DNA of 64,000 bases from Pseudodesulfovibrio indicus (GCF_001563225.1 NZ_CP014206.1:1984001-2048000); one strand, 5' to 3'. Counted from the stretch's first letter, positions 38,876 through 57,978 are shown. A program made the numbers and translations. The notes: a model not told the origin generated them from the sequence alone.

Positions 38876-39148
38876 ATGACCAAAGCTGAACTCGTAGCGA
38901 AGATCGCTGAAAAGAACGGCACTTCCAAAGCTCAGGCCGAAGCCGCCATGAACGCCATCCTGGACACCATTCAGGAAGAGCTGGCCGCCGGCAACAAACT
39001 GACCCTGACCGGCTTCGGCACCTTCAGCGTCAGCGAGCGCAAGGCCCGCACTGGCCGCAATCCTCGCACCGGCACCGCCCTGAACATCCCGGCCTGCAAG
39101 GTTGCCCAGTTCAAGCCCGGCAAGGTCCTGAAGGAAGCGGTACGATAA
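38876..39148 (+). CDS. hup: HU-family DNA-binding protein
   Basis: A 90-residue nucleoid protein with MTKAELVAKIAEKNGTSKAQ and the DNA-binding arm motif GRNPRTG. It bends DNA as a dimer. AGGAG sits 8 bp before the ATG. It marks the boundary of the GC-rich core; the recombinase operon begins straight after its terminator. Confidence 0.95.
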   Translation: MTKAELVAKIAEKNGTSKAQAEAAMNAILDTIQEELAAGNKLTLTGFGTFSVSERKARTGRNPRTGTALNIPACKVAQFKPGKVLKEAVR

Positions 39149-39187: not shown

Positions 39188-39219
39188 AAGGGGGTATGTC
39201 TTTACGGCATACCCCCTTT
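39188..39219 (+). terminator. Terminator of the HU gene
   Basis: An 11-bp stem AAGGGGGTATG / CATACCCCCTT followed by T, 40 bp after the stop. Confidence 0.88.
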
Positions 39220-39268
39220 ACTTGTGGCTGTTTTCTTTATAATGTTTATAAAAATAAAGGTAAATTTT

Positions 39269-40537
39269 ATGGGTGAATCATACAAAGTGATCGATGTTCG
39301 ATATGACACAGGAGAGCATATGCCTGTGTTGGTCGCTCCAGATGGAAGTGTGCCAGCATTACCTGCTTTTTATGTGACAAGCATCTGCCGTCCTAAAGAC
39401 TCATCTTCTACAATGAAGATAAAATTGACCTCTATAAAACACTTTTATCAATGGGCGGATTTGTGTGGAATTGATCTTGATGAGCGTTTTAGTCGTCGAG
39501 AAGTCTTAACTCCAATTGAAATTGATAGCTTGATTTACGCTTGCAGTCTTCAATTCAAATGTATGCTTTCCAATTTCAATATTGCATCTGGGGCAAGCAC
39601 TCGTCGCGGTGTTGTTAGCCTTAATCCTCAACAGGAAATGAAGAGTGTTAATGCCGCAACGCATTATTCAAGATTAAGGCAAATTCATGCCTACACAGAT
39701 TGGTTCTTTTTAGAGAGCATAAAAAATATGGACCCTCGCAGCTCTGCATACAAAGAGGCATTGAGTAACAAACATAATATGCTCTCTTGGTTAAAAGAAA
39801 GAACTCCTAAAGCAACCGTAGTCGGTGGGAACAGTCTTGTTCCACCAAAGGGATTTGACTTGAGTGTTCAGCAACGGATTATGGAAGTTATAGAGTCTGA
39901 TCACCCTGAGAATCCTTGGAAAAATGACTTCGTTAAAATTAGGAACCAACTATATATAACCATCTGTCTGGCCCTTGGAATAAGACTAGGTGAAACGTTA
40001 AAAATTAAAACAGAAGATGTTGTCCTGTCTGGAAAAACTCCTCATATCGCAATTCGTAGGCGTGTGGATGATCCCAAAGACAAGAGAAAGCGCGCCCCAA
40101 AAGTAAAAACTAAAGAACGCCCTTTAGCTATTGGTAGAGATTGGTATCCCTTGCTCCGTTTATACATAGATAAATACTGGCGCAGGATGAGAAACGCCAG
40201 AAAACATGGATATTTGTTTGTTTCTCGATATGGGAATGAATTTTCCTATGAAGCAGCAATGAAAATCTTCTATCAGTTAAGGCAAAAAGTTCCGGGAATG
40301 CCTGACAACCTAACCCAACATTTGATTCGACATGCCTGGAATGAGCGTTTTTCGGAAGCAGGAGAGGCTAAAGGAACTCCACATGATGTTATGATGGAAT
40401 CTCGCCGCTTTCTCATGGGGTGGTCTGTAAATTCCCGAATGCCAGACCTTTATGATCGCAGATTTACTATACGAAAGGCTGATGAGATTTCATTAGAGAT
40501 GCAGGATAATTTCTTTAAGAAGGATTCTAAGGAATGA
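39269..40537 (+). CDS. Tyrosine recombinase 1
   Basis: A 422-residue site-specific recombinase. Catalytic positions can be read: R in LGIRLGETLKI, H and R in LTQHLIRHAWNERF, and the tyrosine in RMPDLYDRRF. The N-terminal half is a helical DNA-binding domain. Start ATG 39269 has AAGG about 10 bp upstream; the GTG at 39224 lies almost in the HU terminator. It overlaps recombinase 2 by 4 bp (ATGA). Confidence 0.88.
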   Translation: MGESYKVIDVRYDTGEHMPVLVAPDGSVPALPAFYVTSICRPKDSSSTMKIKLTSIKHFYQWADLCGIDLDERFSRREVLTPIEIDSLIYACSLQFKCMLSNFNIASGASTRRGVVSLNPQQEMKSVNAATHYSRLRQIHAYTDWFFLESIKNMDPRSSAYKEALSNKHNMLSWLKERTPKATVVGGNSLVPPKGFDLSVQQRIMEVIESDHPENPWKNDFVKIRNQLYITICLALGIRLGETLKIKTEDVVLSGKTPHIAIRRRVDDPKDKRKRAPKVKTKERPLAIGRDWYPLLRLYIDKYWRRMRNARKHGYLFVSRYGNEFSYEAAMKIFYQLRQKVPGMPDNLTQHLIRHAWNERFSEAGEAKGTPHDVMMESRRFLMGWSVNSRMPDLYDRRFTIRKADEISLEMQDNFFKKDSKE

Positions 40538-42158
40538 GTGTCTCTTCTCTCGGTTACTATATTCAAAGCGGTTCTCGCTTCACTAGAGATGGTTATGAGT
40601 ATGACCCCTCGGATGATCACTGGTATATTGTGGGTGCTGGTAGAGGACGTCACTTTCGCTTTGATGAAATGAGAAAGTGCTTGTCCTCAAAGTTGGTCGA
40701 TGAAGTAAAGATAGGCTTAGTCGTCTCTTTAGACAAATTGGCAGTCGCTACAGCTCAACTTCATTATCGATACTTTTTGACTTTTTTGCGTGAAATGTAT
40801 CAGCACGAAAGCGAAGTTGATAGCATCACAGGTTTGGATTTCGTGAATTTTACCCAAGTCTGTGAGCCTGCTTACAGCAAAACACTAAGGCGATTTTTGA
40901 GAATTCTGCATAATCTAGGCCTTGGGGGCTGACTTCCGATGACATTGAATTAATTAACCAAGTATACTTGCGTCCTCCCGAGCCATATCTGGCCCAAAAA
41001 ACACTAGATCCAATTAGAGGTCCCTACACAGTTGAAGAGTTTGAAGGCCTGCGTTCTGCTATCCATAAAGCATACGAAAATTGCAAAATAGGAGATGAAT
41101 ATTACATTATATTGATTCTAGTAAACGTGTTTGGGTTGAGGCCAAAGCAAATAGCAGTACTAAAGATTTGTGATTTTCTTATAAGTGCGACTGAGGCAGG
41201 GGGAATAGAGTATTCTTTGAATGTCCCCCGTGTGAAGCAGAGAGACGTTGGAGAACGCACTGCTTTTACAAATAGAAAGCTAGGGTCCGAAATCGGGGAG
41301 TATCTCAATCTTTGGATTGATGAACTAAAAAACGAGATATCTTTCCGGGGCATTAAACTCAAATACGATGAAGGATTATTTCCTCTTTTCCCTCTTTGGA
41401 AACCAAGAAAGAAAGAGATAAACATAAAGAGCCAAGGAGATTATGAATATCACTCTGGCAACGATAGGATTGCCCAAATTGCATGTTCTCAGATTCGCAG
41501 AGCAATAAGCGAGAAATCCCATCGGACAGGTGAAAATCTGGCTGTGGGTTCACGTCGTGCTCGACATTACATTGGAACAACCATGGCAGTAAATGGTTGT
41601 GGACGACGAGTGATTGCCCATGCTTTAGATCATTCTCATCTGCATTCATGCAAAGCATATATTCAGTTTGGGCAAGAAGCTATTGATGAAATTGATAAGA
41701 AATTAGCTCCTCATCAGAAACCTCTGATCGACGCTTTTCGAGGGCGGCTCATCGAAAAGCCAAACCTCTTCGGTACTAGGCAAACATACAATCCTGTCCG
41801 GTCCTCCTTGAATACTGAAGAACTGGGGATGTGTGTGAACCCTTCAGGGTGTGCAATCTATTCGATTGATATAGGTGAACCAAGCTCCTTTCTCGCTAGA
41901 GTTCCTTTCTCTTGTTATCGTTGTTGGAATTTTAATGCTTTCAATAATCTAGAAGTTCACAAGGAGCATCTTGAAATTCTCAAACGAGAAAAGCAACTGT
42001 CTCTGAAGTCCTTTAATGAAGAAGGACTCAACACACAGCCGGGGCTTGCTGTGAGCTATGCCCCGATGATTCGAGCAGTAGAAGATGTTATCGCTAAAAT
42101 CGAAGCAGGCGATATCTCTGAGTTCGACCTTGAAACCGATATGGTTGATTCCTTCTGA
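40534..42158 (+). pseudogene. Tyrosine recombinase 2, frameshifted
   Basis: The first frame (40534-40932, 132 residues) ends at a TGA just after five G; restoring one G lets the reading continue through LTSDDIELINQVYLRPPEPY into the open frame that runs to 42158, giving about 541 residues. The catalytic domain is in the second part: R in VFGLRPKQIAVLK, RRARHYIGTTM as the H/R box, and the tyrosine in HSCKAYI. A C-terminal zinc-binding-like pattern follows (CVNPSGC, FSCYRC). If the gap is real the recombinase may be inactive; if it is an indel error the gene is complete. Confidence 0.8.
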
Positions 42159-42166
42159 GGTCCAAT

Positions 42167-42631
42167 ATGCCCAAGAGTATTACTCCTGAAATTCTCTCTA
42201 AATTAGAGCCATACCTTGAACAGCTAGATCAATCCTGGGAGGCCCAACCCGAAGGCCTGCGCCAGCCCACTTTGCCTATCACACCTGATGGTAAGGTTAA
42301 CGTGAGGGGCATTGCCAAGGCTATTGGCCTGCGACAATCTCAGGAACAACATTTCTTTCGCAAGCCAGAACTGGCCAGCCCTGTAAACGCGCTTGCTCAA
42401 GTTCAAGGGGTCAAGTCTATTGGCTCCAGGCTGCTCTCAGATCAGCACGACAAGGCTGCCGTAGATCGCCTTGCAAGGACCGCAACGGAAAGGAATGACC
42501 TTGCCCGCGCTTTAGCAGAGAAAGAAGCTGAAATCGAATCCTTACGCGAAGAGAATACCATGTTGTTATCGCGGTTGGCTCAGATCGAGTCCGTTGGTGC
42601 TGCAATCCGTACCGAGTCACCGGAGGATTAA
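42167..42631 (+). CDS. Small HTH/coiled-coil protein 1
   Basis: A 154-residue protein with a helical N-terminal part containing VNVRGIAKAIGLRQSQEQHFF, which looks like a helix-turn-helix, and a long coiled coil (about residues 105-145: RNDLARALAEKEAEIESLREEN). Small proteins of this layout accompany multi-recombinase elements as accessory factors. It starts 8 bp after recombinase 2 and its stop shares a base with the helicase start (TAATG). No family proven. Confidence 0.65.
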   Translation: MPKSITPEILSKLEPYLEQLDQSWEAQPEGLRQPTLPITPDGKVNVRGIAKAIGLRQSQEQHFFRKPELASPVNALAQVQGVKSIGSRLLSDQHDKAAVDRLARTATERNDLARALAEKEAEIESLREENTMLLSRLAQIESVGAAIRTESPED

Positions 42632-44766
42632 TGCAGATCCATGTGCAGCGCATAGTCAGTCAAAAGGCTTACGGGACCATCTTCGCGGGTGAAGTTCTCG
42701 ATGGCGAGCAGACAGGTTGTTCCATCCAGGTAAAAGCATATGCTGCGCGTCTGGTTGGCATACCCTCTTTGGGTGAAACATGGGAAGTCTCAGGACCAAT
42801 CAAGAGCACTAAATGGGGTGATCAGGTAGAGGCTGAATATGCCTATCGTCAAAGGCCTACAGGTAAACTCATAGTCTCTTTTTTGTCGAGTAACTGCCCC
42901 GGCATCGGCCTGACTCGCGCAAAGCGTTTATGGGACAAATGGGGCAACGATCTGGCTGATGTTCTCTCTAATGGCAACATCGCTGAGATCTCAGAGGTTC
43001 TCGCTCCAAGTCGCCCCCTGCTTTCTGTTCGGCTGGCCTCTCTTGTCTGCCGTGAGTGGAATAAGCAAGAAGCCGAATCTGACCTAGCTGCTTGGTTTCA
43101 AAAACATGGCATTGACTCTCCAAAGCTCTTGAGAATGTGCGCCAACACCTTCGGTAAACAAGCTGTGGATCGACTCCGCAGCAACCCGTGGTGTCTGGCC
43201 TCAATGATGAATTGGGAACAATGCGATGCCATTGGCCTCAAAGTGCTGGCTGAGATTGGATCGGCTGCACCGGAGCGGTCAAACAAACGACTCCTTGGGG
43301 CCGTTGATTCTGCTACCAGAGATATTCTGGCGTCCGGCTCAACCTCTGTTGGCCTCTTTGATCTTGAATCGTTTCTAGAAGACAAATTGGACGATTCCAA
43401 ATCTATTCTCGATGCGGTGCAGCTCGGTCTTCATTACGGCGCTATCATTTCTCAAGATGGCAAGTGGATGCCGCCCGGATCAGCCTACATGGAAAGGGCT
43501 GTCGTTGGTGCTTTGCGACAACTTGATGACGATGGCCAGATCAACGTCGAAGAACGGAACGTCAGAGATATTTTAACAACGCTCAGTGCTGGCCATGTGA
43601 AACCCGACCAAGAACAGTTTCAGGCCATGATCCACATTCTCCGGTCTCCTTTATCCTGCCTCATTGGCGGGGCCGGAACAGGCAAAACTACGATCCTGCG
43701 CTACGTCGTGCGGCTCTGGCGCAGACTTGGCGGCAATGTCTTGATGGCAACTCTTTCCGGTAAGGCAGCTTTGAAACTGTCTCAATCAACTGGCCTGCTG
43801 GCAAAAACGTTGACTCGCACCTTGGTCGAACTCCAAGAGGATCACGACGAAGAAGGACACGACCTGGCTGAAATCAACGAAAGGACTCTGGTGGTCATAG
43901 ATGAAGCCAGTATGGTTGATCTTGCTACATTCCACGCGCTGATGAAGCACATGAAGAAAGGTTCCCGGCTGCTTCTGGCCGGTGATCCGGCGCAGTTGCC
44001 CCCAATTGGCTTCGGCCTCGTCTTCCATGAGCTTGTGAAGGACGACTCTCTCACGGTTCGGCTCAACAAAATTTATCGTCAGACCGCAGACAGCGGTATT
44101 CCAAAGGTTGCAAAGGCTTTGCGCGAAAGGTGCATGCCAACCTTTTCTCAGTATCAAGGCCGAAGGGAAGGCGTGTCCTTAATCCCGGCCTCATTGGACT
44201 CTATTCCGGCAATTGTCGAACAGGTAGCAGAAGACCTTGGCGGTTTCGACGGGGAGCTGATGATTGTAACGGCAACCAACCGTGGTCCGGCTGGTGTAGG
44301 TCGTCTCAATCGTCTCTTTCACGACAAGTACAAGCAGCAGGCAAGGTTACCCGAACTCAAGGGCAGCTTGGGCCAATACTTCTGCCCAGGAGAGCCGGTG
44401 ATCCATTTGAAGAACGACTACCAACGAACAGTCTTCAACGGCAGCTTGGGCAAGGTGCTGGACGTGGATCGTGACGAATACAACCTCACGGCAAACCTTG
44501 ATGGTAAAGTTGTCAGCTTCGATGCGAGCCAGCTCATCGACCTTTCATTGGCCTATTCGATCACCTGTCACAAGTGCCAGGGCAGCCAAGTGAAGCGAGT
44601 CATTATCCCTGTCTACCAGACGAGATTACTTGACCCCTCATGGGTCTATACGGCGATAACGCGAGCAGAAATACAGGTCGTGCTCATAGGAGACAAAAAA
44701 GAAATAGAACGGGCCTTAGAACGGAAATTCGCGGCTGATTGTCGCAGTGTAGGATTTAGGTGGTAG
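42631..44766 (+). CDS. RecD2-like SF1B DNA helicase
   Basis: A 711-residue helicase. The N-terminal region (about 1-330) resembles the OB/HHH part of RecD2. Walker A is GGAGTGKTT (about residue 348), followed by LVVIDEASM (motif II), LLLAGDPAQLPPIG (motif III), LNKIYRQ, and the UvrD_C_2 motifs ITCHKCQGSQ and YTAITRAE. It moves 5'-3' on DNA in known relatives. It sits between two recombinase genes in the same transcript, which suggests a role in movement of the element, such as processing or replication of the excised DNA. Confidence 0.88.
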   Translation: MQIHVQRIVSQKAYGTIFAGEVLDGEQTGCSIQVKAYAARLVGIPSLGETWEVSGPIKSTKWGDQVEAEYAYRQRPTGKLIVSFLSSNCPGIGLTRAKRLWDKWGNDLADVLSNGNIAEISEVLAPSRPLLSVRLASLVCREWNKQEAESDLAAWFQKHGIDSPKLLRMCANTFGKQAVDRLRSNPWCLASMMNWEQCDAIGLKVLAEIGSAAPERSNKRLLGAVDSATRDILASGSTSVGLFDLESFLEDKLDDSKSILDAVQLGLHYGAIISQDGKWMPPGSAYMERAVVGALRQLDDDGQINVEERNVRDILTTLSAGHVKPDQEQFQAMIHILRSPLSCLIGGAGTGKTTILRYVVRLWRRLGGNVLMATLSGKAALKLSQSTGLLAKTLTRTLVELQEDHDEEGHDLAEINERTLVVIDEASMVDLATFHALMKHMKKGSRLLLAGDPAQLPPIGFGLVFHELVKDDSLTVRLNKIYRQTADSGIPKVAKALRERCMPTFSQYQGRREGVSLIPASLDSIPAIVEQVAEDLGGFDGELMIVTATNRGPAGVGRLNRLFHDKYKQQARLPELKGSLGQYFCPGEPVIHLKNDYQRTVFNGSLGKVLDVDRDEYNLTANLDGKVVSFDASQLIDLSLAYSITCHKCQGSQVKRVIIPVYQTRLLDPSWVYTAITRAEIQVVLIGDKKEIERALERKFAADCRSVGFRW

Positions 44767-44767
44767 A

Positions 44768-46816
44768 ATGAGCAAAGCACAGATCATTCTTTTCAAGCCC
44801 AAACGTGAGGTAGACGCAATCGAGAATGTCAGTGCCTTCATTGAGATGGCCAAGAATGAGTTGACGGTGTTTGGTGCTGATCTTGATTGGGATGCAACCA
44901 CCTGGGACATGAGTGACCATTATAAGAGCAGGGGGGGCGTTTACAGGAATCTCATTTGGGGCAATTGGGACACCAATCGCCACAGCACAGGAGAACCTTT
45001 ACAGGCCCCTCTGGGTGATTTTGCCAAAGCATATATTAGGTATTCTCAGGGACTTAAAAAGAATAAATCTCCACACGCACCTCTCAATGCTTTTAGAGCG
45101 TTGGAACGTGTTTTGTTAGAAATGTCGTTGGCTCCATGCATTACTCAAGTCACTGTCGATGTGCTCAACAGGAGCCAGTCTCTTCTTTCCAAGCGATACA
45201 AAAATGGAGCGAGGGATGGACAAGCTCTTCAGAAACTATCAGCTTTTTTAAACGAAAATAGAATGTTGATTTATCCACCTTTTCAGTGGAAACACTCTAT
45301 TAGAAGGGAAAAGACGGACAATGTTGATTTCAATGGTGACGGAACTGACAAACTTCCAACAGACACTTGCTTATATGCTATAGCAGACGTTTTTCATTCA
45401 TCATCAGACCCAGTAAATAGGCTCGCTGCTGGTATCGCTATTATCTTACTCTCCAACCCATGCAGAGTTGGAGAGGTTTTAACTTTGGATAAAGATTGTT
45501 TGGTGCATGGTCATCAAGGAAAATCTGATGGGCTTGGACTTAGGATTTTCCCGGAAAAAGGTGGAGAGCCATTTGTTAAGCCCATTCAGGGTGTTTGGCG
45601 TGACATTCTTCAGGATGTTGTTGATGAGGTTCTAGAGCTGTCCACAGAAGGAAGGAAAATAGCTAAGTGGTATGAAGATAATCCAACCCAAATGTATCTT
45701 CCTCCCGAGTTTTCCCCCCTAAGAGGAGAGGAATATATCGACAGCACAACAGCGATGAAGTTGTTAAAAGTTTCTAGCACAACCCTCTCTAGTGGTATCG
45801 TTTCTAAACATGGGATCATGTTAGAATATGGTGGCTACATGAAGCCTAAACTGATGCGATTTTCTGATTTGGAGAAGTTTGTGCTAACTTTGCTGCCAAA
45901 AGACTTTCCTTTTCGCCACCAGTCCTCTGGCTTGAAATACTCAGACAGCCTTTTTGTCTTTCCTTATAATTTTTTCCGATCCTACGACACATACTCCAGT
46001 GTCATGGTCCAAAAACTGGTTTATAGCACTTTGTCTAATCTCTATGGGGCAGAAACCGGTCATGAGTCTGGGAAGTCGATTTTTGAGAAGTATGGTCTTT
46101 ACGAGCCTGATGGATCAAAGATTCGCTTCCGACCCCACTCAGCTAGGCATTACCAAGACAGCCTTTTAGATCATAGTCATGTCTCCCAAACGTTCAGAGC
46201 TTTTTACGCTGGGCGCAAGGATGTTAGACAGAATGAAGCTTATTCCCATGCTTCACTTCTAGACAAAGCTGATAAGTCATTGGGTATCTATGATCAAAGC
46301 CAACTGTCGCCAGCAAACGTTGATAGCTCATTAGACGTTTTTAATCAGCCTGAAGCTTTAGCGGGATTACTCAGAACTCACTATGAGGACACTGTTCATG
46401 TGACTGATGTAGGGTACTGCGTTATGGGCAGCGAAAGAATATGTGACAAATTTAATGATCATCTCCTCTGTAGCGACCACGTTTACATTAAGGGCGATGT
46501 TCGCCTTTATGCGAATCTGCCTGAACGTGTACGCTTTTATGAAAACTTGGTTGAAAATCGGAAACTGACCATGTTGCCTACGGGAGTAGATGTTGCGCTT
46601 AAACACGACGAACAAACGCTTTATGTCCTAAAGTCAATCCTAGCTGTCTTGTCTGACAAAACGGTCCCAGACGGATCGTTTTTTAGACTGCTACCAGGTA
46701 GTGATTATTCTAGGATGCGCCTAGCTTACTACAAAAGAAATAATAAACTCTTAGGGCAAACTAACTCTGCCACTATTCCTCTTATAAAGGTTGGTGAATT
46801 ATGCCTCCGCACTTAG
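44768..46816 (+). CDS. Large tyrosine recombinase 3 with insert
   Basis: A 682-residue protein. The catalytic core is divided: R in SNPCRVGEVLTL (about residue 235), then a roughly 200-residue stretch with an excisionase-like helix-turn-helix (YIDSTTAMKLLKVSSTTL), then RPHSARHYQDSLLDHSH (H/R box) and a candidate tyrosine in VRQNEAYSH. A Cys/His patch follows (YCVMGSERICDKF, HLLCSDH). Large recombinases of this shape occur as the second or third member of recombinase-trio elements. It starts 1 bp after the helicase and overlaps the next gene by 16 bp. Activity is plausible but not certain. Confidence 0.75.
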   Translation: MSKAQIILFKPKREVDAIENVSAFIEMAKNELTVFGADLDWDATTWDMSDHYKSRGGVYRNLIWGNWDTNRHSTGEPLQAPLGDFAKAYIRYSQGLKKNKSPHAPLNAFRALERVLLEMSLAPCITQVTVDVLNRSQSLLSKRYKNGARDGQALQKLSAFLNENRMLIYPPFQWKHSIRREKTDNVDFNGDGTDKLPTDTCLYAIADVFHSSSDPVNRLAAGIAIILLSNPCRVGEVLTLDKDCLVHGHQGKSDGLGLRIFPEKGGEPFVKPIQGVWRDILQDVVDEVLELSTEGRKIAKWYEDNPTQMYLPPEFSPLRGEEYIDSTTAMKLLKVSSTTLSSGIVSKHGIMLEYGGYMKPKLMRFSDLEKFVLTLLPKDFPFRHQSSGLKYSDSLFVFPYNFFRSYDTYSSVMVQKLVYSTLSNLYGAETGHESGKSIFEKYGLYEPDGSKIRFRPHSARHYQDSLLDHSHVSQTFRAFYAGRKDVRQNEAYSHASLLDKADKSLGIYDQSQLSPANVDSSLDVFNQPEALAGLLRTHYEDTVHVTDVGYCVMGSERICDKFNDHLLCSDHVYIKGDVRLYANLPERVRFYENLVENRKLTMLPTGVDVALKHDEQTLYVLKSILAVLSDKTVPDGSFFRLLPGSDYSRMRLAYYKRNNKLLGQTNSATIPLIKVGELCLRT

Positions 46817-47202
46817 ATGAAAAGTTGGTTAACAAAATAGTCTATATCATAGATGAGTGGACAGGGAAGCTCACCTGGCCCCTTATTGTCGAAGCCGTAG
46901 AGCGTTCTCTTGGTTGGCGGTATTCAAGGCAAACCTTGTCAAAATATAGCGGTATTAAAGACGCTTACTATCGCAAAAAAGATCAGTTGAGCGGTGAAGA
47001 GTTTGAGCCTGTGTACTATACACCCCGGCAAATGAAGAAAGTTCTAGATAGGCTGGAGCGGTTAGAAAAGGAAAACTCGCGAATGAAAAAACAGATTGAA
47101 ATCCTCACTGGACAACTAGCCCAATGGGCATACAACGCAAATGTTAGAGGGGTAACAAAAGCGGATTTGGATGTTCCCCTGCCACCAGTCAATAGATCAT
47201 AG
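46801..47202 (+). CDS. Small HTH/coiled-coil protein 2
   Basis: A 133-residue protein with an N-terminal helix-turn-helix-like half (LTWPLIVEAVERSLGWRYSRQTLSKYSGIKDAY) and a C-terminal coiled coil (LDRLERLEKENSRMKKQIEIL). The layout resembles the small TnpC/DUF6262-like partners of Tn554-type recombinases. It overlaps recombinase 3 by 16 bp and is the last gene of the operon. Confidence 0.65.
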   Translation: MPPHLDEKLVNKIVYIIDEWTGKLTWPLIVEAVERSLGWRYSRQTLSKYSGIKDAYYRKKDQLSGEEFEPVYYTPRQMKKVLDRLERLEKENSRMKKQIEILTGQLAQWAYNANVRGVTKADLDVPLPPVNRS

Positions 47203-47599
47203 TGAGCGTTGATTTTTGAGACCCAGAGCTTTGACTCCTTCGTCGAAAGAATCTCCTTATTGGTTCTGATCTGTCACCCGTTTTGTCGGGGGGGGATTTG
47301 GAAATATATTGTCTTCTTTCAACTTGCATATATTCTTTCTGCTAAAGGTCCATAATCGGTTACTTTGCGAGTGGAAGCACTGTCAATCGACTCGTCATCG
47401 CAATTAGTCATGCGTTTCAACATAATCTTCTGAGCCTGAAGAACGCATCTCGTGTAAGCAAAGCATGCTCGCAATTGCTACTTATTCTAGTTGGCGCTTC
47501 GTATCGTTCTAACCAGTACGCAGTGGCTTAACACTATGTATATTTGACCACGATAGCTTCGTGCATTTCATGAGCTAGGGCAAAGGTGCTTTATGCATG

Positions 47600-47650
47600 T
47601 GTGTCCATTTTTTAAACACAATGGGTGTGGTGCGCCTAAAAAATGGACAA
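47600..47650. promoter_or_regulatory. Pair of putative activator sites (UAS), inverted
   Basis: Two copies of a motif with core TAAAAAATGGACA, one on each strand (47600-47620 reversed and 47630-47650 forward), forming an inverted repeat about 100-150 bp upstream of the sigma-54 promoter. Related copies occur at 58091-58142 and 61193-61215. Confidence 0.6.
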
Positions 47651-47747
47651 ATATTGATGGAGTGTTCAAATATACGTCCCAACAAAAGACTAATTTTTAG
47701 AAAATAAAGTAATATATTTTAAGCTGTTATTTTTATCTGCGCTTCTT

Positions 47748-47762
47748 TGGCACACCGATTGC
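47748..47762 (+). promoter_or_regulatory. Sigma-54 (-24/-12) promoter
   Basis: TGGCAC-ACCGA-TTGC, a perfect match to the TGGCAC-N5-TTGC consensus, 45 bp before the ZraP-like gene. Confidence 0.85.
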
Positions 47763-47807
47763 CTTATAGTTTTCAATTACACAATTTAACTATCGGAGGA
47801 TTAACTC

Positions 47808-48284
47808 ATGAAGAAGACTATTATGGTACTCGCACTGGTTATGACTGTTGCATTTATTTCAACTAACGCTATGGCGTGGGGAATGAACGGCTGGAATGGA
47901 AACGGCCACAACATGCATTACAATAATGGAGTCAACTCCCAAGTTAACTCTCAAGCCTATCAGGATTTCCTGAATGACACTGCTAAGCTCCGAGCTAGTA
48001 TTGCGGCAGACCAAGTCGAATTGTCAGCTATCATGGCCAGTCCGTCCCCTGACGCAAAGAGGGCTCGAACCGTGACAGAGCAGATGAACGAGAAGATTGC
48101 CAAGCTGAATGAAAAGGCAGCTGCACAGAATCTTCCCCAGATGGGCAACGGCAGATACGGCATGATGGGTAACGGCATGATGGGCAACGGCATGATGGGC
48201 AACGGTATGATGGGCAACGGCATGATGGGCAACGGTATGATGGGTCCCGGCATGATGAACAATGGCTACCATGGTTGCTGGTAG
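47808..48284 (+). CDS. ZraP-like periplasmic metal-binding protein with GMMGN repeats
   Basis: A 158-residue secreted protein. The signal peptide ends at AMA (about 23). The middle (DFLNDTAKLRASIAADQVELSAIMASPSPDAKRARTVTEQM) is the helical hairpin of ZraP/CpxP-type (LTXXQ) chaperones, and the tail consists of six GMMGN repeats ending in GCW. Met-rich repeats suggest binding of copper, zinc or similar ions. GGAGG precedes the ATG. Transcription is expected from the sigma-54 promoter; a SHOCT gene follows after an intercistronic hairpin. Paralogue: the gene at 57514. Confidence 0.85.
   Translation: MKKTIMVLALVMTVAFISTNAMAWGMNGWNGNGHNMHYNNGVNSQVNSQAYQDFLNDTAKLRASIAADQVELSAIMASPSPDAKRARTVTEQMNEKIAKLNEKAAAQNLPQMGNGRYGMMGNGMMGNGMMGNGMMGNGMMGNGMMGPGMMNNGYHGCW
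48159..48248 (+). repeat. Tandem 15-bp coding repeat
   Basis: Six copies of GGCATGATGGGCAAC-type units in frame, encoding GMMGN (last unit GMMGP). Such repeats change number easily. Confidence 0.9.
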
Positions 48285-48294
48285 ATAACTTACT

Positions 48295-48322
48295 TGACGG
48301 GAGGGGCTTTCCCCTCTCGTCA
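48295..48322 (+). promoter_or_regulatory. Intercistronic hairpin
   Basis: A perfect 12-bp stem (TGACGGGAGGGG / CCCCTCTCGTCA allowing one G-T) between the ZraP-like and SHOCT genes without a T run. It probably stabilises the upstream message or lowers downstream expression. Confidence 0.6.
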
Positions 48323-48343
48323 TAGTGTTGAGGAGAGCCCATA

Positions 48344-48595
48344 ATGTGGTATTCAAATTGGGGACATCACGGGTCTGGTTGGAGCATGGGGGGCGGTTTG
48401 CTTGGCATGGTGCTAAACCTGTTGATAATCATTTCCTTGGTTTATCTCGCCACCCGACTATTTAAACACTTCAGAGCACGTCCAAACGTGAATGGATATT
48501 CCAGCGATCATTTACAGATTCTCAAACGCAGATTTGCAAACAGCGAAATTGATGAAGAAGAATTTGAGAAATTGCGCAAAAACTTAGAAGCGTAA
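48344..48595 (+). CDS. SHOCT-domain small membrane protein
   Basis: An 83-residue protein with a Gly/His/Trp-rich N terminus (MWYSNWGHHGSGWSMGGG), one membrane helix and a C-terminal SHOCT domain (LQILKRRFANSEIDEEEFEKLRKNL). It is paired with the ZraP-like gene. A paralogue at 57190 is paired with the second ZraP-like gene. SHOCT domains are short protein-interaction elements; the function is unknown. Confidence 0.85.
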   Translation: MWYSNWGHHGSGWSMGGGLLGMVLNLLIIISLVYLATRLFKHFRARPNVNGYSSDHLQILKRRFANSEIDEEEFEKLRKNLEA

Positions 48596-48764
48596 AATCT
48601 ATGTCTATCATCATGCGTCTACATAACAATGTCTTCTCTTTGTTAAGCGTATTTGGCTCGTAGTCTTTGAAGCACAGTTGACACTCGACAAACGAATGAA
48701 TAGGTGTTCATATGGCCCGTGCCTGCTAGTTGGCTCTGCCATTTTGAAAAGGATAGAGGACACC

Positions 48765-50873
48765 ATGACTACGAAAAAATTCGGATTGAAAAACTTGGAC
48801 TGCGCTGCTTGTGCAGCAAAGCTTGAGAACGGCCTTAATGATATGGAAACCATAGATAAGGCTGTGGTTGATTTTGCAACAATGACGCTTTTTATTACAG
48901 CTGAGGATGTGGCTGATATTGAAGCTAAGGTGAAGGTAATTGAGCCAGAAGTAGGCATTATCGATTATTCCAACCTCCCTGCTTCCAGCGAAGCAGCACA
49001 AGAAGAGAGCGACAAGCCACGTGATTTAATTCTCCTGGCAGTCGCTGGGGCTATGTTTATTTTTACCCTTGTGTATGAGGATGTGTTCCACCAAACAAAG
49101 TGGAGTGGCTGGGAAGTCCCATTTGTCCTTGTCGCCTATTTTCTTGCGGGATGGAACGTTCTTTTGGGGGCACTCAAGACCATCAAGAAAGGCCTGTTTT
49201 TTGATGAAAACGTGCTGATGACCATCGCTACGATCGGGGCAATTGCGATCCATGCGTACCCGGAAGCTGTGGGCATCATGATTTTCTTCAAGGTCGGTGA
49301 ATTGCTTCAAGGGTTTGCAGTCAATCGGTCTCGTCGCTCAATCAAGTCTTTGCTGGCCTCAAGGCCGGATAAAGCTTTTTTGTTGGAGCTTGATGGTCTG
49401 AAAGAAGTAAAGCCGGAAATGGTTCAGGTAGGACAATCCGTTGTGGTCAAGCCTGGAGACAAGATCCCTCTGGACGGTGAAGTGACCAGCGGCTCATCGC
49501 AGATTGACACTTCTGCTTTGACGGGAGAGTCCGTACCCATCGTAGTCGAAGAAGGCGATAGCGTCCTCGCGGGCCAAATCTGCAAGACAGGCGCACTGAC
49601 AATCAAGGTAACCCGTCCCTTTGAGGAGTCTTCCATAGCTAAGGTTATGGATTTGGTGGAGAACGCCACGGCAAATAAGGCCAAGACCGAGAAATTTATC
49701 ACTCGCTTTTCCCGATACTACACCCCATTTGTCGTCTTTTTGGCGGCAGGCATCGCACTTATTCCGCCTCTGTTCATGGGAGCGAGTTTTAGCGAATGGA
49801 TATACAGGGCACTGGTTCTGCTTGTTATATCTTGCCCCTGTGCACTGGTTGTCAGTATCCCTCTTGGATATTTTGGAGGAATTGGCCGATCTTCAATGCA
49901 AGGCATTCTTGTCAAGGGCTCGAATTATCTTGATGTACTGGCATCTGTTACCACAGTCGCCTTTGACAAGACGGGCACACTGACGGAAGGCGTTTTCAAG
50001 GTAAATGATGTCGTCACAAACAATGGGTTCACTAAAGATTCACTGATCGAATTTGCCGCAGCAGCTGAATACCATTCAACTCATCCTATCGCTGTCTCTA
50101 TTGTCGATATACAGAACGCCAAAGGAGAGCCAGTCCAGGAATCAAAGATATCCGAGCATACTGTTCGTTCTGGCATGGGGGTTGAAGCTGTTTACGAAGG
50201 ACATAGAGTCCTTGTCGGCAACAACCGCCTTATGGAGAAAAACGGGGTAGAGTACCAGAATAAGAACTATGAAGGCACTATTGCCCATGTGTCCGTAGAC
50301 GGTAAATACGCTGGGCACATAGCTATCGGAGACAATTTGCGCTCCGATGCACGCCAGGCCATTCGCTCTCTCAAGGATATGGGGGTGAAAGAAGTAGTCA
50401 TGCTGACGGGCGATAATGAACAGACAGCTGCTGCTGTGGCCAAGACCCTAGGTCTGGACAGCTTTCATGCAAACCTGTTGCCGGAAGACAAGGTTGATTA
50501 CTTTGAGAAGATCAATTCGAACAATCGAGATAGTGGAAAAATCGCGTTTGTAGGGGATGGGATTAACGATGCGCCTGTCATTGCTAGGGCGGATGTTGGC
50601 ATCGCGATGGGAGCTATGGGAAGTGATGCAGCCGTGGAAACTGCTGATGTCGTTCTTATGGTGGATTCTCCCCTCAAGGTTGCTGAAGCTATTTCCATTG
50701 CCAAGCAGACTCGGCGAATCGTCTGGCAGAACATACTGCTGGCTTTCGTCGTCAAGGGGATCTTCATCTCGTTTGGTGCATTTGGTTTGGCCACGATGTG
50801 GGAAGCTGTTTTTGCGGATGTTGGAACGGCATTGTTGGCCTTGGCAAACTCCGCTAGAATTCTGAAGAGTTAA
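48765..50873 (+). CDS. zntA: Zn/Cd/Pb-transporting P-type ATPase, ZntA-like
   Basis: A 702-residue P1B-type ATPase. There is an N-terminal HMA domain with CAAC, a CPC motif in membrane helix 6 (ISCPCALVVS), the phosphorylation site DKTGTLTEG, the HP locus STHPI and the GDGINDAP hinge. K in the AFVVKGIF helix and D in the VFADVGTALLA helix match the ZntA zinc-site lysine and aspartate, so the Zn/Cd/Pb subgroup is favoured over copper. It exports metal from the cytoplasm. ATG 48765 (GAGGA upstream) is preferred to 48678. No MerR-type regulator is nearby; a separate sigma-70-type promoter is possible. Confidence 0.92.
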   Translation: MTTKKFGLKNLDCAACAAKLENGLNDMETIDKAVVDFATMTLFITAEDVADIEAKVKVIEPEVGIIDYSNLPASSEAAQEESDKPRDLILLAVAGAMFIFTLVYEDVFHQTKWSGWEVPFVLVAYFLAGWNVLLGALKTIKKGLFFDENVLMTIATIGAIAIHAYPEAVGIMIFFKVGELLQGFAVNRSRRSIKSLLASRPDKAFLLELDGLKEVKPEMVQVGQSVVVKPGDKIPLDGEVTSGSSQIDTSALTGESVPIVVEEGDSVLAGQICKTGALTIKVTRPFEESSIAKVMDLVENATANKAKTEKFITRFSRYYTPFVVFLAAGIALIPPLFMGASFSEWIYRALVLLVISCPCALVVSIPLGYFGGIGRSSMQGILVKGSNYLDVLASVTTVAFDKTGTLTEGVFKVNDVVTNNGFTKDSLIEFAAAAEYHSTHPIAVSIVDIQNAKGEPVQESKISEHTVRSGMGVEAVYEGHRVLVGNNRLMEKNGVEYQNKNYEGTIAHVSVDGKYAGHIAIGDNLRSDARQAIRSLKDMGVKEVVMLTGDNEQTAAAVAKTLGLDSFHANLLPEDKVDYFEKINSNNRDSGKIAFVGDGINDAPVIARADVGIAMGAMGSDAAVETADVVLMVDSPLKVAEAISIAKQTRRIVWQNILLAFVVKGIFISFGAFGLATMWEAVFADVGTALLALANSARILKS

Positions 50874-50892
50874 AATAATTTTACCTCAAGAA

Positions 50893-50930
50893 AAGCCCGC
50901 CTCACTGTTAAGTCACAGTGAGGCGGGCTT
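50893..50930. terminator. Bidirectional terminator
   Basis: A 16-bp stem AAGCCCGCCTCACTGT / ACAGTGAGGCGGGCTT between the convergent ATPase and Dsb-like genes, with short A/T runs. Confidence 0.85.
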
Positions 50931-50965
50931 CATTATTTATCAACTGAGATCCAAAAATATTGCTA

Positions 50966-51598
50966 CTACTTACATATTGCTTTTTTATCCAAAGCAGTTA
51001 GCCAGTGCTGCGGTCCATAGCCCATGACGATATTCTCACCAGCCAGGAGAACAGGTGTCCCTGGCAGTCCAGCGGCCTTTGCGAGAGAAGCTCCCTTGAG
51101 AACCCGTTCACGATGGGTTCGACCAAGTTTGACAAAAAGTTTGGGTAACGTGGTGTTGGCCAGCAAACTAGGAAATTCTTCTGTAAATTGCATCAACACG
51201 CCCATGCGCGCTTCATTCAGATCTTTCGTCTTGGGTTGCTTGAGATCCGAATAAGCGAAATCGACCATTGTCTCCAGCCTATCTGAACCGACAAAGTCCT
51301 CGAGAATCCAAGCTGCCATGTCCGAGCCAATGAAGCTTTGTCGAGGGTAAAATAATAATTTTAAACTACGATACTTTTCCGGGTATTCTTTCAACAACTT
51401 GTGTCCAAGTCTGCAATGCCCACAAAGAGGATCAGTGGCTACGACGATATCAAAGTCGCCTTTACCTTTCAGCTCAACACGAGCGCTCTCCGTGAGAGTC
51501 AGGAACTTTGGCGCACAGCCATCCTCATCTGCAGCATAAGATTGTGGGGGGAATAGCATGGTCAAAGACAAAAATGAGATAATCAAAAGTGCTCGCAT
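50966..51598 (-). CDS. Periplasmic thioredoxin-like protein, DsbC/DsbG type
   Basis: A 210-residue protein with a signal peptide (to about 22, SYA) and a thioredoxin fold: active site PLCGHCRLGH and cis-proline loop GLPGTPVLL. CGHC is typical of DsbC/G isomerases and DsbA variants; the N-terminal dimerisation domain of DsbC is missing. It could maintain thiols of metal-binding or cytochrome proteins encoded nearby. Confidence 0.85.
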   Translation of the reverse strand: MRALLIISFLSLTMLFPPQSYAADEDGCAPKFLTLTESARVELKGKGDFDIVVATDPLCGHCRLGHKLLKEYPEKYRSLKLLFYPRQSFIGSDMAAWILEDFVGSDRLETMVDFAYSDLKQPKTKDLNEARMGVLMQFTEEFPSLLANTTLPKLFVKLGRTHRERVLKGASLAKAAGLPGTPVLLAGENIVMGYGPQHWLTALDKKAICK

Positions 51599-52552
51599 TG
51601 ATAGAACTACCTAGTCATTTGGGTTGAAAAGAATTTGGGCTTAGAGTTAGCGACCAATGCCGTATTCATATGCCAGGAATCAAAAAAGTATTTTAAAATG
51701 ACCAACATAAATCAGATGCACTAAATGTTCCATCCAATTAATCCAATTATATTGAGTTCCAGCTCAACCCAAACAAACAACGGTTGTTGGTGATTAACGC
51801 ATAATTGCACAAAACATAGTGAAAAGGGCCACATGGTGTGGCCCTTTTCGGTTTGGGGGGTGTTCAACAGTCAAGGAGGTATTGTGGTTAAACTGTTGCT
51901 GGTCCGGTATATGATCAAGTTCTACACTTATGAATTCTTCTGGGCGGGGGGAGAGAACCTCGCCTGAAGTGGAACAAAGGTAGAATCGTATTACCTAGTT
52001 CCCCCTATCCGTGCCGGATGCCACCATGGCTATCCGGCACGGAATCGGAGTTCTGCCACAACAACGTGGCAGCGAGGATGATGAGAGTGACTAAACATGC
52101 ATCTGCTCTCCCCTTTAGCAACAGCCGTGCCATATTTTTTATATAATAAAATCATGATGTTACTCTTTATTGGTCTGATTTTTGCCATGCGGATTGGGTG
52201 ATTGATTGCACACGATTCTTGCACTCATGTGCTACCTTTCGCATTCATCAGCAGGGTGAAACCCAACCAACTCCTCGCATCGGGCCTGCTTGATAAGGCG
52301 GGCGTACAGAAATGATGCACACCTGTGACACCCTTTGCACATCTTTCTTTCGCTCAACTTGCTGAAATCAAACATTTTTAGCAATTCCATACGGTTGCAG
52401 TATGGAATCTTAATTGCATAGCAATCTAATGTATGAAGTGAGTTCTGCTGAATTCACCGTAAGCACCTAGGGCGTGCATTTGAGCATCCAGACTTACACG
52501 AAAGAGTTTGTTGTTTTGGACTTGGTATTTATGTCAACTGTTTGGAGAAAAC
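51599..52552. other. Long intergenic region
   Basis: About 950 bp with no convincing protein gene. It contains a terminator hairpin at 51821-51849 not attached to a visible gene, and a second perfect stem (CCGTGCCGGAT / ATCCGGCACGG, 52009-52042) without a T run. A small RNA is possible. Confidence 0.55.
51821..51849. terminator. Orphan terminator hairpin
   Basis: A 13-bp stem GAAAAGGGCCACA / TGTGGCCCTTTTC with a 3-base loop in the middle of a gene-free region. Confidence 0.7.
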
Positions 52553-54448
52553 ATGCATGTATTAATGGAAGTTGGTCTTATGGCCGCAATGCTCTTGTCG
52601 TTGATCGCTGCTGCCTGGGCCTGTCTGGATACGTATCAGGGGCAGTCTGGTACATTGAGATGGCTGGAGAGAGGGCAGTACTCAGTTGTTTCTCTCCTTG
52701 TTCTGGCAAGTGGGATACTCTGGACAGCGTTGATGTCGCGGGACTTTTCCTTCAAATATGTTTATCAATATACGAGTCTCAACCTCCCGGACTTTTATGC
52801 TGTAACAGCCTTTTGGGCAGGACGTTCCGGCTCTCTCCTCTTCTGGCTACTCATCATCGCAGTGAGCGGAACCGTTTTTCTTAGAACCAAAAAATACAGT
52901 GATCTGCCTGAGCAAACCAAAGTGGCCTTTTGGTTACTGTTTTTCACAGTCCAAGGTTTTTTCCTTTTCCTGCTCACAAGTTTAAGCCAGCCATACATTG
53001 CGCTGTCTCCCGTGCCAGCCGACGGTGAGGGCTTGAACCCGCTTCTGCAAAATCCAGGGATGGCGTTCCATCCACCTCTACTTTTTCTGGGATACGGATT
53101 TCTTACGATCCCTGCATGCCTGTCTCTGTCCATGGCTCTGACAAAGGGTCAGGATGCTTGGATGAAATTGACTCGTGGCTGGGTTCTCCCTGCCTGGGCC
53201 TTTTTGAGCGCGGGGATCATACTCGGCGGCTGGTGGGCCTACATGGAGTTGGGTTGGGGCGGCTATTGGGCCTGGGACCCGGTGGAAAACGCTTCAATTA
53301 TCCCGTGGTTTGCAGCTACCGCATACCTTCACACGTCCATTCTTGGGCAACGGTATGGGCTCTTCAAACGAATCAATATTGTTCTCATCAACCTCGCTTT
53401 CCTATTGTGCATAGTCGGTACATATATTGTCCGTAGTGGAATTATTGAATCCGTGCACGCTTTCGGCGGCGGTGGCGTGGGAGGCCCTCTCCTCGTATTC
53501 ATATTGGCATACCTCTTTCTTGTTCTTGTCGGGACAGCGCAGGCCCACACCGACAAACCGAAACATGAGATGATTGCACTGAGCCGGCAAGGGCTTCTGG
53601 TCTTTTCCGTGTGGATTTTCCTGGCTCTGGGAAGTGTCATATTGCTCGGGACCATGTGGCCGGTTATCAGCCTGGGGTGGGAATCAAATCCTGTAGGCGT
53701 GACAGCAGGATTCTACAATACCGTAACTATGCCACTGTTTATCTGCATAGGGTTGCTGCTTCTCGTATGCCCATGGCTCTCATGGAAAGAAGGAATACAG
53801 CATCGGGAGCGCTTTATCATATCAACTCTGTCAGCGGTATGTCTTGGGGGTGCTGCATACTTCAGCGGGATTCGAATGGTTCTGCCGCTTGTCGGGTTCA
53901 GCGCCGGAGCCGGGGTAATCGTTTCAACCATCATGCTGGCATTGCAGAAAAAGGCACTGACAAGCAGGAGATTTTGGATTGCTCATGGCACACACCTCGG
54001 CATAGCATTGATGATTGTGGGGGTAGCCATATCCGGCCCGTACCAAAGTAAAAAGGAGCTGGTCTTGGCAGAAGGGCAAAGTTTTGCGTTTTCTGGATAC
54101 AATTTTGAATATAAAGAGATGGTCCATTCAGAGAGCAACGGTATCAAATCTCGTGTGGCGCGAATCATCGTAAGTCACAAAGGCAAAGAGATAGGTGTTC
54201 TTGAGCCATCTCAACTCATCTTTCCGAACAATGACCACCCACATACGGAAGTGTCGACCTTGTTCAGCTTTGGAAAGGAGCTTTACGCAACTATCCACGA
54301 TGTGGAGGATGGTCGTCTGGAGCCGTTAATCGTCAGCGTGAATCCGCTGGTGAATTGGGTATGGTTAGGCGGAACTTTCGTTTGCCTGTTCCCATTTATT
54401 GTCTTGCTGCCCAAGAGAAATAGAGAATCGGCTACCGCCGCAGAGTAG
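52553..54448 (+). CDS. CcmF/NrfE-type cytochrome c haem lyase
   Basis: A 631-residue protein with about 15 membrane helices. The WWD haem-handling motif is intact (WGGYWAWDPVENAS), and the flanking histidines and the periplasmic C-terminal domain fit CcmF/NrfE. It joins haem to apocytochrome c on the periplasmic side. ATG 52553 (GGAGAA upstream) starts directly before the first helix. The TPR gene 14 bp downstream is a CcmI/NrfG-like partner. No cytochrome gene lies next to it, so its client is unknown; a dedicated NrfEFG-like module is possible. Confidence 0.88.
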   Translation: MHVLMEVGLMAAMLLSLIAAAWACLDTYQGQSGTLRWLERGQYSVVSLLVLASGILWTALMSRDFSFKYVYQYTSLNLPDFYAVTAFWAGRSGSLLFWLLIIAVSGTVFLRTKKYSDLPEQTKVAFWLLFFTVQGFFLFLLTSLSQPYIALSPVPADGEGLNPLLQNPGMAFHPPLLFLGYGFLTIPACLSLSMALTKGQDAWMKLTRGWVLPAWAFLSAGIILGGWWAYMELGWGGYWAWDPVENASIIPWFAATAYLHTSILGQRYGLFKRINIVLINLAFLLCIVGTYIVRSGIIESVHAFGGGGVGGPLLVFILAYLFLVLVGTAQAHTDKPKHEMIALSRQGLLVFSVWIFLALGSVILLGTMWPVISLGWESNPVGVTAGFYNTVTMPLFICIGLLLLVCPWLSWKEGIQHRERFIISTLSAVCLGGAAYFSGIRMVLPLVGFSAGAGVIVSTIMLALQKKALTSRRFWIAHGTHLGIALMIVGVAISGPYQSKKELVLAEGQSFAFSGYNFEYKEMVHSESNGIKSRVARIIVSHKGKEIGVLEPSQLIFPNNDHPHTEVSTLFSFGKELYATIHDVEDGRLEPLIVSVNPLVNWVWLGGTFVCLFPFIVLLPKRNRESATAAE

Positions 54449-54462
54449 ATTGGAGAACAGGA

Positions 54463-55035
54463 ATGCAAAATACAACATCACGCCGCGGAAAGAATATAGT
54501 TCTAATGACATTGGCCATAGGCTTGGCAGTCATGGCCATGTCATCTTTTTTTTATCGTCTGCAAGGACCAGTACAAGCAACATCAAAGCCTGCTTCTCAG
54601 TCTGCACCCGCTGCAATGAGTCAGGAGAAAGGTGCTGAAATTCAAAAGTACATGGCAATGCTACAAGGAAATTCAGAGAATACTGAGGCATTGGTCGGAC
54701 TTGGCGAGCTCTTCATGCAAGCCGGTTCATGGGATAAGGCCTCATCATTCTGGCAACGATACTTGAAACTTGAATCGCAGGATGAAAAGGCTATCTACCA
54801 TTATGCGATAGCTCTTTTGAACCTGGACAAGTTTCATGAATCCGTAGCCCAATTTGAACGACTAGTTGCAATTAATCCAAAGAATTATCACGGATATTAC
54901 TATCTCGGAATGATTCATGTCTACTATTTGGATGATTCCAGCAAAGGCAAAGAATACCTGCAAAAGGTCATAGAACTCAATCCGGACGACAAGGAGATAG
55001 TAGGTGTGGTCCGTGAAGAGCTTGCTAAAATGTAA
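54463..55035 (+). CDS. Membrane-anchored TPR protein, CcmI/NrfG-like
   Basis: A 190-residue protein with one N-terminal membrane helix (IVLMTLAIGLAVMAMSSFFY) and three TPR units (about residues 75-180). Proteins of this kind hold apocytochrome c for the haem lyase. It follows the CcmF-like gene by 14 bp. Confidence 0.8.
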   Translation: MQNTTSRRGKNIVLMTLAIGLAVMAMSSFFYRLQGPVQATSKPASQSAPAAMSQEKGAEIQKYMAMLQGNSENTEALVGLGELFMQAGSWDKASSFWQRYLKLESQDEKAIYHYAIALLNLDKFHESVAQFERLVAINPKNYHGYYYLGMIHVYYLDDSSKGKEYLQKVIELNPDDKEIVGVVREELAKM

Positions 55036-55154
55036 TTATGTGGAGTCCGTGAGTGGATCTCATGATCACGGGCTCCATTTATCTATTAACTACAACAAAG
55101 ACATTTTTGACATCAACCTACCGGCATTTCTCAATGCTCACATTCTTGCTTAAT

Positions 55155-56447: not shown

Positions 56448-57189
56448 TTGGCTATGAGCCAGAGGGTTAGCTGATTCCGCATATTGGGATCAAGCAGAAT
56501 GGAGATGCCCTCAAATCACAATCAACCGAGGGCGACATCAAGAGTCATCATCACGACAAATCCGAAGATACACCCTATTGTCGCCTGATCCCCATAGCCT
56601 GAAGCCTGTGATTCCGGAATGACTTCCTTAGAGGAGGTCATTTATTAAGCAACTTCAACTAAGAGAATCCCAACCGACTGTTTTTGATGTATTTTACCAT
56701 AGTCACTCGCCGTTGTGTATGAAAACTGAAAAAAAGCCGTGCCGTGAGTTCTCAATGGAAGAAGGCCGATGCAAGACAACGGCCTTCTTCGGGGGTGGAG
56801 GTTAAAGGGTTAATACGAGAGGTGTGTTTGAAATAATGGTTTTCAAATCGGTAAGCCTTTCGACTGGTGGCTCATGGGCTGGACGAAATCATACATATTG
56901 ATCGGCCTTGGAATGACACATGCCTTGTTTTTGCAATGAACTGCCAGCTTGTCTTCCTTGGTCCCGGACACCGTTTCCGATGCCCGGGATTTGGGGGAGG
57001 CACCGCCACATGACTTTGGCGGGATCGCGATGAGAAAGTATCTGGGGGCAAAGAAGTGCTCACACATGCACTTCATACATTTCTCATCTAAATTCATACA
57101 CTACTTATAAAATTTGCATTTTACTGTGCGGTATATAAATGGTTCTCAGTCTCGATTGCTCGCCACTTTGCCGACAAGTTGATCGGGAA
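56448..57189. other. Intergenic region with one doubtful small frame
   Basis: About 740 bp. It has a short stem (AGAAGGCCG / CGGCCTTCT near 56760-56793) without a T tract, and a doubtful cysteine-rich frame at 56843-57097. Otherwise I see nothing. Confidence 0.5.
56843..57097 (-). CDS. Doubtful small Cys-rich protein
   Basis: An 84-residue open frame starting MNLDEKCMKCMCEHFF with six cysteines in total. No ribosome-binding site of note and no family recognised. The Cys-rich start would fit a metal island, but the frame may be spurious. Confidence 0.25.
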   Translation of the reverse strand: MNLDEKCMKCMCEHFFAPRYFLIAIPPKSCGGASPKSRASETVSGTKEDKLAVHCKNKACVIPRPINMYDFVQPMSHQSKGLPI

Positions 57190-57447
57190 TTAGCCGACAA
57201 GAATATCCCGCATCCGTTGATATTCATCCTCAGAAATCTTTCCTTCGGCATATCTGGTCTTTAGTATCTCGAGTGACGCACTCTTGTCAGAGGCTGCAAT
57301 TTGTGTCGGGACAAATGCCCTGATGAGTCTGTAGATGAGATAGATCACGGCTAAGATCATAAGGAAGCTCAGCAGGCCACCAAATAATCCGCCACCCATG
57401 AACATCATGTTCGAGCCGAAGGGGGTCATCCAATCACAGTTCCACAT
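57190..57447 (-). CDS. SHOCT-domain small membrane protein, second copy
   Basis: An 85-residue paralogue of the protein at 48344: short Met/Trp-rich N terminus (MWNCDWMTPFGSNMM), a Gly-rich membrane helix and a SHOCT C terminus (LEILKTRYAEGKISEDEYQRMRDIL). It follows the second ZraP-like gene after a hairpin, in the same order as the first module. AAGGAG precedes the ATG on the minus strand. Confidence 0.85.
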   Translation of the reverse strand: MWNCDWMTPFGSNMMFMGGGLFGGLLSFLMILAVIYLIYRLIRAFVPTQIAASDKSASLEILKTRYAEGKISEDEYQRMRDILVG

Positions 57448-57475
57448 AAAAATTCTCCTTAGTGCTTGGGCGGAA

Positions 57476-57505: not shown

Positions 57506-57513
57506 CCTATAAC

Positions 57514-57933: not shown

Positions 57934-57978
57934 TTAAAATCTCCTTAAGTTAGTTTTGTTCGATTATGCTTTCTTAAG

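Follow-up and report, generated by a model that had tools for sequence, protein, structure and literature searches.

By sequence comparison, a six-gene cluster of Pseudodesulfovibrio indicus forms the left-end recombination operon of a GInt-type island of about 40.15 kb, which lies in the 3' end of an HU-family gene. The cluster was found in a stretch of 64,000 nucleotides (NZ_CP014206.1, 1984001 to 2048000), here called the window; positions are those of the window unless they are given for the genome. Two of its genes, C and D, encode a small protein and a RecD2-like helicase. The joint reading that we regard as probable is that of a GInt-type operon carrying an exchanged C-D cassette, which would assist the recombination or replication of the element; this assisting role we infer from sequence.

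The initial annotation had described six tightly packed genes on the plus strand, AT-rich against the core. Both observations hold: six adjacent genes with overlapping or near-touching ends occupy 39224-47202 (Table 1), and their GC content is 41-53%, compared with about 65% in the upstream core. The operon placed at 39222-47202 is therefore real, but the element to which it belongs is much larger. Three tyrosine recombinases had been proposed, and A, B and E are recognizable as such by profile or fold (about 422, about 540 and 682 amino acids), although B is not intact in the window. Small genes accompany them, and the ends of the element are a short direct repeat.

Table 1. Features of the window that relate to the island
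Feature	Position	Strand	Remarks
HU-family gene (target)	38876..39148	+	last codons element-derived
attL CTGAAGGAAGCGGT	39128..39141	+	left end of the ~40.15-kb element, within the last HU codons
Terminator-like hairpin	39188..39219	+	part of the element; after attL and before gene A
Gene A, ginA-like tyrosine recombinase	39224..40537	+	PF00589, 8e-12; has R, HxxRH and Y
Gene B, ginB-like integrase (NF041502)	40534..42158	+	frame broken near 40922-40932
Segment 74% DNA-identical to copy 2	41816..44920	+	3' part of B, whole of C and D, 5' part of E
Gene C, small HTH-like/coiled-coil protein, 154 aa	42167..42631	+	cassette gene 1; VPA1267-related via intermediates
Gene D, RecD2-like SF1B helicase	42631..44766	+	cassette gene 2; Walker and TRA motifs
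Gene E, ginC-like large tyrosine recombinase, 682 aa	44768..46816	+	predicted fold, invariant residues
Gene F, ginD-like small coiled-coil protein, 133 aa	46801..47202	+
Cargo	47203..64000		extends to genome 2063273, past the window edge
Metal-type P-type ATPase (cargo)	48732-50873
CcmF-like gene (cargo)	52508-54448

Comparison with a second copy of the cluster in the same genome (copy 2) makes ATG 39269 a more probable start of gene A than GTG 39224. Gene B consists of two pieces in the window, 40534-40932 and 40914-42158, and the frame changes at a run of five G. The second part matches NF041502 with 201 bits (3e-59) and the intact, 537-residue gene B of copy 2 with 248 bits, against a cut-off of 350 that is exceeded by relatives of gene B at loci L035 and L089; from gene order and site we infer that NF041502 is GinB. 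Could the frame break be a programmed frameshift? No canonical slippery heptamer is present, and the gene is in one piece in copy 2 and in most relatives; this possibility was therefore rejected, and a lesion or a sequencing error in the G run is likelier. Because ginB is broken, the copy at the HU site is probably now stalled.

No curated profile matched genes C, E or F above its cut-off, and gene E had no Pfam or NCBIfam match. The predicted structure of E (mean pLDDT 79) has a tyrosine recombinase fold, with the Tn1549 integrase as top match (Z 13.7). Across 31 aligned E proteins, R233, K264, H457, R460 and Y492 never vary, nor do three cysteines; gene E therefore looks catalytically complete.

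GInt stands for Genomic Island with three Integrases, a kind of element described by Bardaji et al. 2017 (PMC5385486). GInts have at the 5' end a gin operon, ginABCD, made up of three recombinase-like genes and a small partner, then cargo of 2.5-70 kb and a short AT-rich 3' end, and are flanked by imperfect direct repeats of 10-17 nt; they are site-specific and excise as a circle, for which all four gin genes are needed (PMC5385486). In Pseudomonas, ginABCD alone is enough for excision and integration, with staggered cuts of about 6 nt (PMC5385486). The present element has the same tripartite form, with the operon at its left end and an AT-rich right end over about 40.15 kb, and its repeats are 14 nt long with 12 identical positions around a site that is empty in congeners. 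A, B, E and F belong to the same HMM families as A-B-E-F operons found at the ssb genes of many genomes and plasmids, and follow the ginABCD order, interrupted by C-D. As in GInts, attL overlaps the end of a gene, and relatives are located at ssb genes as published. GinC has been described as lacking parts of the recombinase motif (PMC5385486, PMC10214605), whereas gene E of the window keeps the R, K, H, R and Y residues. Further differences from published GInts are the position of C-D between ginB and ginC, the HU target, the broken ginB of the window copy and a host of the Desulfobacterota type. This genome is the only one of 395 from the host phylum with a match to NF041502.

Which other families does the operon resemble? 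Tn554 consists of the recombinases TnpA and TnpB, plus TnpC; the present operon has three recombinases (A, B and E) and two small genes. Gamma-mobile-trio (GMT) elements are reportedly composed of GmtY-GmtZ-GmtX, a description said to be that of Mahata et al. in 2024. They too have a tyrosine recombinase operon, and often carry C-D in the form of a VPA1267-family protein and a RecD-like AAA ATPase. However, GmtY, GmtZ and GmtX are different proteins from those of the window: gene A scores 16.2 bits against a GmtY cut-off of 340, and no gmtZ or gmtX match was found in the window operon. Strand-biased circularizing integrative elements (SEs) have the layout intA-tfp-intB-srap, and their proteins were published as a cluster separate from GInts (PMC10214605). 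The likeness to SEs, which is drawn from their published description, lies in a left-end recombination operon of four genes with a small partner. On the plasmid pT75-VIM (L223), tmexCD-toprJ is found beside an operon called gin-type by the HMMs made here, while a tmexCD-toprJ carrier has been placed among the SEs (PMC10214605).

Where does the element begin and end? The insertion had been placed right after the HU terminator, and this has to be revised: the left end falls in the last HU codons, and the hairpin that follows belongs to the element. attL (CTGAAGGAAGCGGT) and attR (CTGAAGGACGCCGT, outside the window at L032:17274, genome 2063274) match at 12 of 14 positions, and the right end is at about 2063273 of the genome, some 15 kb past the edge of the window. 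The original HU tail, CTGAAGGACGCCGTGAAGTAG, is found at L032:17274, 40.15 kb downstream of CTGAAGGAAGCGGT at 39128. In congeners a terminator comes directly after the HU gene, and the closest congeners also have a convergent chemotaxis-receptor gene next; here the receptor gene is beside the old HU 3' end, about 40.1 kb downstream. When the flanks are joined, they give a single unbroken 3.4-kb alignment with congener G157 and similar ones with others. Because the joined flanks align to empty congener sites, the element can be seen to replace the last HU codons (HU ends in KEAVR here, in KDAVK in congeners) and to supply its own hairpin, for which the region 39170-39226 has a folding energy of -23.4 kcal/mol (z -5). 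The rightmost 200 bp of the element are 67.5% AT. The initial annotation had called for a comparison of insertions for ends, target and cargo; exact ends come from empty congener sites, the target is HU and the cargo is of the heavy-metal type.

This cargo is a predicted metal-stress set, with a P-type ATPase, CusCBA-type efflux, a sensor kinase and a sigma-54 regulator. Besides the genes in Table 1, its part within the window includes an M23 peptidase, an MCP-like protein, a histidine kinase and the sigma-54 regulator; the CusCBA-type efflux genes and a transposase are located past the window. Within the metal cargo, 47808-48284 and 57514-57933 encode small secreted Met/Gly-rich proteins that are Spy/ZraP-like by eye. 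Elsewhere in the window, positions 1-13813 form a lower-GC region that ends at tRNA-Ala(CGC) (13738-13813); its translations read as a cytochrome nitrite reductase, a hybrid-cluster protein, a flavodiiron protein and CbbQ/VWA-type proteins. An integrase is found about 7 kb upstream of the window (L003), and this region may be another island, located at a tRNA gene.

What do the two cassette genes encode? The predicted structure of C is an HTH-like bundle with a long helix, for which a fold search gave no confident match. Compared directly, window gene C is below the threshold of the VPA1267 model, and the link is made via intermediates. Gene D bears out the proposal of a RecD2-like helicase in the operon, with a TIGR01448 score of 357 bits. 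It shares with RecD2 (TIGR01448; Deinococcus structure 3e1s) the helicase core, the HHH-type and SH3-type domains and, by homology, membership of the 5'-3' family. Unlike RecD2, it is under the equivalog cut-off of 500 and, among the matches listed, is always paired with C within multi-recombinase operons.

A comparison within the genome indicates how the cassette relates to its neighbours. Copy 2 (L031) reads A-B-C-D-E-F on the minus strand at about 1391160-1399090 of the genome. The element around it is about 25 kb long and interrupts a gene; the conceptual product of that gene, by reading of its translation, is like antibiotic-biosynthesis-type monooxygenases. Between the two copies, C is 79% and D 77-78% identical, while A, B, E and F are 41-58% identical. 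DNA identity is about 50% outside the similar segment listed in Table 1, and the step lies within the last part of B and the first part of E. At four-fold sites, A and F are near saturation whereas C and D are not (p = 0.004, D versus A and F), and the C-D stretch has a GC content of about 51% compared with about 42% in the flanking recombinase genes. Since identity, four-fold sites and GC all differ from those of the flanking genes, C-D seems to have a history of its own. Constraint alone as the source of the C-D identity is disfavoured, because the four-fold sites are less diverged and the identity step is inside B and E. The order A-B-C-D-E-F was found only in the two copies of this genome, and a short contig with C-D-E (L036) is consistent with it; the earlier remark was that no described element with this exact order was known, and the parent kind, GInt, is a described one. 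This contig (DONH01000217.1, 3.2 kb) is labelled Planctomycetaceae and is 83% identical to the window over C-D-E; it is possibly a mis-binned contig of a relative of the host.

How widespread is the cassette? A helicase alignment was scanned against one genome per species (84,980 genomes), giving at least 80 loci chosen by similarity to D. Genes were called in all open frames with HMMs built here from the first copies and three GMT plasmids, in four rounds of refinement. The genes are kept together elsewhere, as had been expected: among the matches listed, C adjoins and precedes D at all 74 loci with room for it, and recombinase-element genes are present at every one of the 67 loci that have 5.5 kb or more upstream. 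These 67, again among the matches listed, comprise 37 GInt, 17 GMT and 13 partial or other loci, the GInt and SE-like assignments resting on the HMMs made in the present analysis. Several of the 13 are SE-like by their layout, A-x-x-x-C-D, and several SE-like loci carry C-D. C was found at none of 80 viral RecD-like control loci and at none of 17 same-family RecD2-like control loci (with flanks of only about 1.5 kb), and no locus of either set had two or more element genes. A chance neighbourhood of RecD2 genes and integrases is ruled out by both control sets.

The usual order in related operons is A-B-E-F-C-D. Because most relatives read in this way, A-B-E-F (ginABCD) can be taken as the basic unit and C-D as a separate cassette. 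C-D has been found after ginD, in the ginB/ginC interval (this genome and, in part, L036), after gmtX, between gmtZ and gmtX (L198) and before gmtY (L090, L097). Twelve plasmid gin operons found through E read A-B-E-F, a few of them broken or incomplete, and all are without C-D. The ssb target is used by gin operons both with and without the cassette; thus, C-D is optional, and the choice of target does not depend on it. In one operon (L089), ginB (NF041502) and VPA1267 (NF040697) are both above their cut-offs. The NCBI family VPA1267_fam (NF040697) covers the small partner in GMT, and a helicase is annotated beside that partner. As to a match with a known family that has a described helicase gene, which the initial annotation had named as refuting, GInt does match, with no helicase in the main text of its paper, and GMT has the annotated helicase beside VPA1267_fam.

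Some individual loci can be added. One Paraburkholderia contig (L076) has tandem helicase-bearing gin operons, E-F-C-D followed by A-B-E-F-C-D. GMT with the cassette is present on conjugative plasmids of E. coli and Providencia (L196, pEC732_IMP14; L197, p16Pre36-NDM), whose names refer to carbapenemase genes. The helicase of the plasmid L197 is identical to that of a GMT on the chromosome of Providencia rettgeri (L102); in both a minus-strand gene follows, annotated as an integron integrase on the plasmid.

Has the cassette moved between element classes? On a tree built from 85 helicases the GInt label has to change 13 times, and well-supported branches force 12 of these changes. In a mixture-model tree without the four longest rows (GInt versus GMT only) it needs 10, all forced; both trees come from quick searches with SH-aLRT support only. 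The window helicase groups with those of Alpha- and Betaproteobacteria GMT and SE-like loci, and not with most GInt helicases. A GInt (L098) and a GMT (L091) share a single block of 2,625 bp at 94.1% identity, from the start of C to just past D, and their fetched flanks have no match beyond it. The same sharing of C-D only is seen for L058 and L075 (86%) and for L094 and L092 (83%). Trees and alignments together show that C-D has been exchanged as a unit among GInts, GMTs and elements that are SE-like by layout. Such repeated swapping between kinds of island suggests a helicase step in their movement.

Might the cassette serve some other purpose? One proposal is that C-D acts in defence or counter-defence, for example on RecBCD or phage DNA, outside transposition and in a slot common to islands. 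Such islands often carry defence genes; Avs4 and a type ISP restriction enzyme are among the gin-linked cargo genes of plasmids, D resembles the RecD-type helicases of candidate defence systems, and the cassette is absent from the twelve plasmid operons. However, cargo has no fixed linkage of the kind seen for C-D, which is within the recombination operon (between ginB and ginC, between gmtZ and gmtX, or before gmtY), and no nuclease or sensor domain was seen in profile searches of C and D or in the predicted structure of C. This proposal is unlikely. It is more doubtful still that C-D controls the inheritance or copy number of the excised circle, with C as a DNA-binding regulator and D as a replicative helicase, so that the island would be a transient plasmid and the cassette would have no part in strand exchange. 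Replication systems commonly pair a helicase with a DNA-binding partner, and SE intermediates are double-stranded nicked circles (PMC10214605), but a replication initiator or origin was not among the features identified in the element, and a role in strand processing would agree just as well with a place in the recombination operon. The initial proposal of a composite of two fused recombinase units, to which the window order lends itself (A-B-C plus D-E-F), is very hard to sustain, given that A-B-E-F is contiguous in relatives, with C-D after it or without C-D, and that operons with D-E-F alone or A-B-C alone were not seen.

If, as we favour, C-D assists recombination or replication of the element, how might it act? 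C would bind DNA, perhaps at the element ends, partner D and bring it to a nicked strand-exchange intermediate. D would then unwind this intermediate, allowing the circular form to be completed or copied. The cassette would raise transposition frequency or host range and would not be strictly required. Since ginABCD suffices in Pseudomonas (PMC5385486) and the plasmid operons have no cassette, GInts in general do not depend on D for their movement. SEs show strand-biased joining and nicked double-stranded circular intermediates, and a copy-out route that needs further processing has been proposed for them (PMC10214605). A broader idea, put forward tentatively, is that one portable cassette serves at least three element classes because all of them have a transposition step in which strands must be unwound, for example copy-out from a nicked intermediate. 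If this is true, the cassette would mark a replicative mechanism that GInts, GMTs and SE-like elements have in common, and would make it testable.

GInt and GMT are already known, as is the small-partner family in GMT (NF040697). No helicase is mentioned in the main texts on GInts and SEs (PMC5385486, PMC10214605), and the literature search found no published link of the cassette to GInts. The GMT side may be partly described already. As far as checked, the apparent novelty is in the position of the cassette between ginB and ginC, its spread among GInts and its swapping from one class of element to another.

The route by which GInts and SEs move seems to be unusual and often yields no empty donor site, and how their intermediate is processed is an open question (PMC10214605). 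A helicase cassette that is always found with recombination operons, among the matches listed, and that is swapped as a precise block of about 2.6 kb is a possible missing step, and C-D offers a clean target for knock-out. The cassette ties together GInts, GMTs and probably SEs through common parts, and it is islands of these kinds that carry metal-resistance, antibiotic-resistance and defence genes.
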